Source: Thermus caldilimi
GTDB lineage: Bacteria; Deinococcota; Deinococci; Deinococcales; Thermaceae
DNA length: 64,000 bases
Direction: 5' to 3'
NCBI RefSeq assembly: GCF_004684245.1
Contig: NZ_CP038452.1
Span: 2,280,796-2,344,795 of the forward strand
Under the pieces are notes generated by a model. That model saw only the letters and a list, made by a program, of their open reading frames with translations. It did not search any database and was not told the DNA's origin. The position numbers and the translations under genes were made by a program. Shown piece after piece: positions 58,828-60,326 of the stretch (positions are counted from its first letter, which is position 1; every line of letters begins with the position of its first letter).

Positions 58828-59586
58828 ATGCCACGACCCAGGAGGAAAGGAGCCGAGGAGGTGAAGACCTTGGAGCGGGGCCTAAGTGTCCTCGAGGCCC
58901 TGGCGGAGCTTAAGGAGGCTGGGCTTTCCCCCCTGGCGGAGCGGACGGGGCTTACCAAGAGCACCCTTTACCGCCTCCTCCAGACCCTGGTTCGCCACGG
59001 CTTCGTGGAGGAGGAAAGGGGCCTTTACCGGGTGGGTCCCAAGGCCTTCGCTGTGGGCCAGGTTTATCCCAGGCAGAACCTGCTTCTTGCGGCGCATCCG
59101 GAGATGGAGGCCCTGGCGGCGGAAACGGGGGAGAGCGTGAACCTGGCGGTGCTGGCGGGAAGGGAGGCCCTCTATCTGGACCAGGCGGAGGGGGCCAGGT
59201 TGGTCCGGCTCTTCACCGCCCCAGGCTCCCGGGCTCCCCTGCACGCCACGGGGGTGGGGAAGGTCCTCCTCGCCTTCCGGGGCCTTCCCGAGGGGCTTTC
59301 CCTGGTGCCCTACACGCCCTTTACCCTGACCCGCCTCGAGGACCTGAAGCGGGAGCTGGAAACCGTGCGCCAGAAGGGCTACGCCCTGGACAACGAGGAG
59401 AGGGAGCTGGGAGTGCGCTGTGTGGCCGCTCCCGTCTTCGGCCCCGGGGGAGAGGTGGTGGCCGCCTTGTCCCTCTCCGCTCCCGCCAGCCGCCTTTCCC
59501 TAGAGGAGGCCCACCGCCTGGCTCCCCGGGTGGTGGAGGCGGCCAGAAAAGCTTCCTTGCGCCTAGGCTTCGTGTCCGCCTTATAA
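58828..59586 (+). CDS. IclR family transcriptional regulator
   Basis: 252 aa. Winged helix (about 10-75: TLERGLSVLEALAELK, LAERTGLTKSTLYRLLQTL) and an effector domain with PLHATGVGKVLLAF and ALDNEERELGVRCVAAPVF. IclR proteins often sense glyoxylate or aromatic acids. Divergence from aceB and the glc genes points to glyoxylate or pyruvate as signal. ATG 58828 is supported by the -10 box. Confidence 0.93.
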   Translation: MPRPRRKGAEEVKTLERGLSVLEALAELKEAGLSPLAERTGLTKSTLYRLLQTLVRHGFVEEERGLYRVGPKAFAVGQVYPRQNLLLAAHPEMEALAAETGESVNLAVLAGREALYLDQAEGARLVRLFTAPGSRAPLHATGVGKVLLAFRGLPEGLSLVPYTPFTLTRLEDLKRELETVRQKGYALDNEERELGVRCVAAPVFGPGGEVVAALSLSAPASRLSLEEAHRLAPRVVEAARKASLRLGFVSAL

Positions 59587-59587
59587 T
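59582..59587 (+). promoter_or_regulatory. -10 box TATAAT of hspR
   Basis: Consensus TATAAT overlaps the IclR stop codon. The leader is about 35 nt with a GGAGGG ribosome site. No HAIR-type (CTTGAGT-N7-ACTCAAG) sequence was found nearby, so autoregulation is not obvious. Confidence 0.55.
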
Positions 59588-59627
59588 GACATTGGTTAGG
59601 AGGGTTTAGCGGAGGGAGCTAAAGGCC

Positions 59628-60326
59628 ATGAACAAGGACCGTCCCGTGTACGTGATCTCGGTGGCGGCGGAGCTTTTGGAGATGCACCCGCAGACCCTAA
59701 GGCTTTACGAGCGGAAGGGTTTAATTAAGCCGAAGCGGTCTGGGGGGAAGACCCGGCTTTACTCGGAGCGGGACATTGAGAAGCTCCGGGAGATCCGCCG
59801 CTTGACGCAGGAGCTTGGGGTGAACCTGGCGGGGGTGGAGGAGATCATGCGGCTTCGCTCGGAGCTGGAGGCCCTGCAGGCCCGTTTTGAGGCCGAGGTG
59901 GCCCGGCTGAAGGAGGAGATCGGGGCCCGTTTTGCGGAGCTGGAACGCCCGGCCCTTCCCCCTCCCGGGGCCACGGCCAGGCCCTCCCCCAAGGACCGTC
60001 CCGTGTACGTGATCTCGGTGGCGGCGGAGCTTTTGGAGATGCACCCGCAGACCCTAAGGCTTTACGAGCGGAAGGGTTTAATTAAGCCGAAGCGGTCTGG
60101 GGGGAAGACCCGGCTTTACTCGGAGCGGGACATTGAGAAGCTCCGGGAGATCCGCCGCTTGACGCAGGAGCTTGGGGTGAACCTGGCGGGGGTGGAGGAG
60201 ATCATGCGGCTTCGCTCGGAGCTGGAGGCCCTGCAGGCCCGTTTTGAGGCCGAGGTGGCCCGGCTGAAGCTCCTTCTCTTGGAAGAGGGCAAGACCCTTC
60301 CCGAAGGGAGTAGCATGGGGGCGTGA
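59628..60326 (+). CDS. hspR: HspR-like MerR family regulator, tandem-duplicated in one chain
   Basis: 232 aa carrying two complete HspR units. Each has [20 protein letters not shown] (HTH), [20 protein letters not shown] (wing) and [20 protein letters not shown], then a coiled coil. HspR represses chaperone genes, usually as a dimer on HAIR sites. The units are encoded by direct repeats 59633-59912 and 59990-60269, apparently identical over 280 bp. They are joined by a 26-residue linker rich in Pro/Ala, with a further short tail [13 protein letters not shown] after unit 2. An ordinary HspR is about 110-140 aa. Stop overlaps the next start by 4 nt. Confidence 0.88.
59633..59912 (+). repeat. 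Direct repeat, copy 1 (280 bp) in hspR
   Basis: Matches 59990-60269 with no difference that I can see; period 357 bp, an exact multiple of three. Confidence 0.9.
59990..60269 (+). repeat. Direct repeat, copy 2 (280 bp) in hspR
   Basis: Second copy of the repeat; the 77 bp between copies encodes the linker between the two HspR units. Confidence 0.9.

Follow-up and report, generated by a model that had tools for sequence, protein, structure and literature searches.

A fused two-unit HspR in Thermus and the concerted evolution of its units

A single gene with two identical HspR units

The hspR gene of the Thermus genome analysed here encodes two complete HspR units in one chain, and we consider it likely that its product is an old and genuine fused HspR, which would act as a covalent pseudo-dimer on one HAIR dyad to repress heat-shock genes and whose units have been homogenised in Thermus. 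In a repeat search of the window (the whole 64-kb stretch of DNA analysed), we found a direct repeat of 280 nt whose copies, at 59633-59912 and 59990-60269, are 100% identical and spaced by 357, exactly the perfect, in-frame repeat that a sequence-only reading of the window had described. This is the longest exact repeat of the window (the runner-up has 27 bp), and a perfect match over 280 bp excludes a chance origin. The repeat unit occurs exactly twice in the 2.45-Mb single-contig genome when searched as a whole, both times within hspR, and the ORF list places both copies in frame within a single 232-aa ORF (59628-60326), laid out as follows.

59628..60326 including the stop, + strand: hspR, two-unit (fused homodimer type), 232 aa (ORF; NF047377; MerR_1 in two stretches)
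59633..59912, + strand: repeat copy 1, corresponding to unit 1, with HTH, wing and alpha5 helix (280-nt direct repeat, 100% identical)
59913..59989, + strand: unique linker region of 26 protein letters (homologous across Thermus and other fused HspRs)
59990..60269, + strand: repeat copy 2, corresponding to unit 2 (280-nt direct repeat, 100% identical)
60270..60323, + strand: leucine-rich C-terminal tail of 18 protein letters, after unit 2 only (sequence)

Pfam recognises two MerR HTH domains (PF13411, MerR_1) in the hspR product, and the NCBIfam HspR equivalog NF047375 matches it in two stretches (244.1 bits, cut-off 105), which bears out the proposal of two full HspR units joined by a Pro/Ala-rich linker; each unit thus matches HspR as known from the single-unit proteins of Streptomyces, Mycobacterium and Trueperaceae. 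A MerR-type HTH-wing is followed by a long helix, and the GlnR DNA-binding domain superposes at an rmsd of 1.2-1.7 Å. The protein also scores 388.3 bits against NCBIfam NF047377 (curated cut-off 300) over model positions 1-214 of 214. Since this family, whose full name is 'heat shock protein transcriptional repressor HspR, fused homodimer type', already models the architecture, the two-unit HspR protein is not new as such but a member of a classified, curated family, with the same two units over the full 214-position model and no family-level difference. Neither the near-identity of the units at the DNA level nor an evolutionary cause for it is mentioned in the family description that we consulted. 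A literature search found no paper on fused HspR or on Thermus HspR, an absence that is weak evidence, and the mode of evolution of the HspR units seems to be unreported. As for the C-terminal tail of unit 2, it may be a candidate contact for DnaK, by analogy with the hydrophobic tail of mycobacterial HspR (reference within PMC10415612).

Distribution and age of the fusion

When hspR length was compared across Thermus, as the sequence-only reading had proposed, an intact two-unit ORF was found in 15 of 27 species genomes, and the linker sequence additionally in G012, G013 and G020. In other Thermus drafts, contigs end inside a unit, as two nearly identical copies would lead one to expect. One unit without the linker is seen in four Thermus assemblies (G004, G010, G019 and G024), which could reflect either real contraction or assembly collapse; with four genomes showing a single unit in a form indistinguishable here from collapse, the fusion may not be essential. 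Caution is due with short-read Thermus assemblies, which often break at hspR and may collapse it. In one fragmented draft, 65% complete, the two-unit hspR (L105, G020:C20) is apparently frameshifted in the linker, probably through sequencing error.

Across the phylum, 50 of 111 genomes passed the NF047377 cut-off, and these fall in four family-level groups of Deinococcota (f1-f4); a further family-level group, f5, is largely single-unit. Named records link the groups to Calidithermus, Thermaceae, Deinococcales and Trueperaceae, the genus Deinococcus itself being left out, and 'Meiothermus-like' for group g4 is our own reading. Judged by its being shared by four family-level groups, the fused architecture is ancient. 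A PALPxP linker is common to the fused proteins and resembles the ALPA(P) tails in which single-unit Trueperaceae HspR end, from which we infer that the linker probably derives from what was once the C-terminal tail of unit 1. On this view, tandem duplication of an ancestral single-unit hspR, with in-frame joining of the copies, would have turned the tail of the first copy into the linker.

Concerted evolution of the units

Within Thermus genomes, unit 1 and unit 2 differ on average at 3.7 of 276 sites, compared with 26.4 between species, and for third positions the corresponding values are 2.2 and 17.8. The two units carry the same base in 1160 of 1215 variable-column cells (978 in the best of 1000 shuffles), and the ratio of within-genome to between-species differences is 0.03-0.08 in the core, with higher values of 0.28 and 0.65 at the repeat edges. 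For 14 of 15 Thermus genomes, a nucleotide tree groups unit 1 with unit 2 of its own genome, with high support; the units of all 20 g3/g4 genomes form instead a unit 1 clade and a unit 2 clade. The divergence between units of one genome, over a core of 246 sites, is 0-9 in Thermus, 2 in g5 and 6-7 in f4, and 26-68 in g2-g4, f2 and f3. Paralogous units accordingly group by genome despite a duplication that is older than the species, the pattern that defines concerted evolution. Read from these sequence patterns, the units are subject to concerted evolution in some lineages, by gene conversion or by unequal exchange (to three units, then two), and to divergence in others; the present pattern does not separate the two processes. 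Gene conversion, one of three options that the sequence-only reading had left standing, fares best as an account of the identity, given the pairing by genome, the synonymous pattern and the edge gradient. In Thermus, the related genus g5 and the f4 family, recombination between the copies would keep the units identical, and in the Meiothermus/Calidithermus-type genera homogenisation would have stopped and the units specialised.

The other two of those options do not stand up to the distribution of the gene. A single-unit gene wrongly duplicated in assembly might be suspected from the four one-unit Thermus assemblies and from the error-proneness of perfect repeats, but the chance of this is next to negligible: at least 15 independent genomes carry the two-unit gene, a unique linker of 77-81 nt is present in 15 independent Thermus assemblies, diverged two-unit versions exist in other genera and families, a curated family is built on the form, and the contig breaks of several drafts fall exactly within the repeat, as two copies predict. 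Scarcely more credible is a very recent duplication, be it confined to this species or dating from the ancestor of Thermus, whose copies would not yet have had time to diverge. It would suit the 0 differences between units in the window genome, but the fusion and its linker are found throughout the genus and in other families, the units pair by genome, and up to 44 sites differ between species as against 0-15 within a genome. We give equally little credence to extreme purifying selection on both units without recombination, for which the strongly conserved protein core could be invoked, as third positions vary freely between species and yet match within the genome. Separate cycles of loss and re-duplication in each lineage, in place of conversion, have rather more in their favour, as possible single-unit genomes exist, and are nevertheless quite improbable: recombinational loss removes the linker, which is absent in single-unit Thermus, re-duplication would not restore a homologous one, and the edge gradient is in line with conversion. 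Expansion to three units, followed by contraction to two, is compatible with these observations and is itself a form of concerted evolution.

Concerted evolution within a genome is known for duplicated bacterial genes such as tuf and rRNA genes. Like these, the hspR copies are more alike within than between genomes but, unlike them, they share the reading frame of a single regulator. The fused HspR of Meiothermus/Calidithermus-type genera has its fusion, linker and clpB site position all as in Thermus, and differs from it in that the units have diverged (26-68 of 246 nt) and bear fixed asymmetric helix residues. The hspR gene studied here would encode a naturally occurring MerR-type dimer made of one chain, and the fusion has had opposite fates in sister genera, homogenised in one and specialised in the other; this contrast is the part worth following, and opens to experiment the question of whether covalent linkage is important in a repressor that senses heat.

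In two g2 genomes (G049 and G050), unit 1 falls inside the unit 2 clade by DNA but with unit 1 in the protein tree, perhaps owing to an old conversion event. As a possible driver of conversion, the polyploidy of T. thermophilus finds no direct support in PMC6469415, which reports random segregation, with gene conversion excluded, at its marker locus.

Probable pairing of the units

The alpha5 helix is the dimerisation helix of MerR proteins, and single-unit HspR, with one unit per chain, dimerises between chains. In 22 g2-g4 genomes, mid-alpha5 positions hold fixed, opposite residues in the two units: W/Y77, L79 and E80 in unit 1, and D77, Q79 and Q80 in unit 2. Since alpha5 is where MerR proteins dimerise, these residues are consistent with unit 1 pairing with unit 2, most simply within the chain, so that the two long helices would form a covalent MerR-type pseudo-dimer. 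The single-chain dimer suggested in the sequence-only reading appears to be the likeliest form, in keeping with the 'fused homodimer type' in the NCBIfam family name.

It is also conceivable that chains dimerise with one another, unit 1 contacting unit 1 and unit 2 contacting unit 2, one complex then binding two operators in a bridging or cooperative manner. An AlphaFold model of middling quality (pLDDT 73.7, pTM 0.59, 4 sequences) shows two MerR-like DNA-binding domains and leaves the packing of the halves undecided, and cooperative binding of H. pylori HspR to its own promoter is reported (PMC6102357). We regard this arrangement as unlikely, however, as the opposite alpha5 residues fit unit 1-unit 2 pairing and a single 21-bp dyad is conserved at the clpB promoter. 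On the single-chain reading that we favour, the pseudo-dimer would bind one 21-bp, 7-7-7 HAIR-type dyad, such as that over the clpB -35 box, and clpB-type heat-shock genes would stay repressed until heat or loss of DnaK releases HspR.

A HAIR-like operator at clpB

The genes reported to be under HspR control in D. radiodurans include clpB and dnaK, among others (PMC2687793), with HAIR sites as the reported targets (PMC6888292). In the window genome, a HAIR-like 21-bp dyad, CTTGACA-N7-TATCAAG (7-7-7), overlaps the clpB -35 box, and CTTGA-N11-TCAAG has three exact sites genome-wide, that at clpB included.

L139:4384-4404, equal to G000:C1:1368083-1368103: the HAIR-like dyad that overlaps the -35 box of clpB (conserved throughout the phylum)
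G000:C1:359106-359126 and G000:C1:1260340-1260360: the other two exact CTTGA-N11-TCAAG sites, near a tatA-like gene and at the start of a cupin gene, respectively

The clpB dyad is conserved in nearly all Thermus genomes, and a HAIR-type dyad before clpB is common to genomes with fused HspR and to single-unit relatives. No HAIR-like site was found before hspR in the window genome and only a weak one before dnaK; a loose HAIR search allowing 3 mismatches was swamped, with 2036 matches.

The right arm of the clpB dyad varies between lineages. Those with near-identical units (Thermus, g5 and f4) have T(A/G)TCAAG, which makes the dyad more symmetric, and this differs from the (A/G)CTCAA(G/C) of Meiothermus-like, f2, f3 and f5 genomes, the half-site that lineages with diverged units keep and that we take as ancestral. 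Unit identity and operator may have changed together, tying the homogenised regulator to its DNA target, a very doubtful proposition: it involves only about two independent contrasts, and the asymmetric site is shared by single-unit relatives, in which the subunits are necessarily identical. The idea that operator asymmetry follows from unit divergence was largely rejected, since these relatives share it.

Sequences flanking hspR

Two features upstream of hspR stand out.

59582..59587, + strand: -10-like TATAAT, the likely hspR promoter, overlapping the stop codon of the preceding iclR-type gene (conserved when Thermus upstream regions are aligned)
59604..59624, + strand: inverted repeat GTTTAGC-N7-GCTAAAG, 7-7-7, with the hspR Shine-Dalgarno at its centre (conserved in most Thermus)

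The inverted repeat has the spacing of HAIR but another sequence, and its arms show a compensatory change from TTTAGC/GCTAAA to CTTAGC/GCTAAG in four genomes (G006, G016, G026 and G013); as an RNA hairpin at the Shine-Dalgarno, its stability is not unusual (fold z +1.37). Downstream, the GTG start codon of an M20-type peptidase gene shares bases with the stop of hspR (GTGA, 60323-60326), an overlap that is conserved in most Thermus and suggests translational coupling of the two genes.
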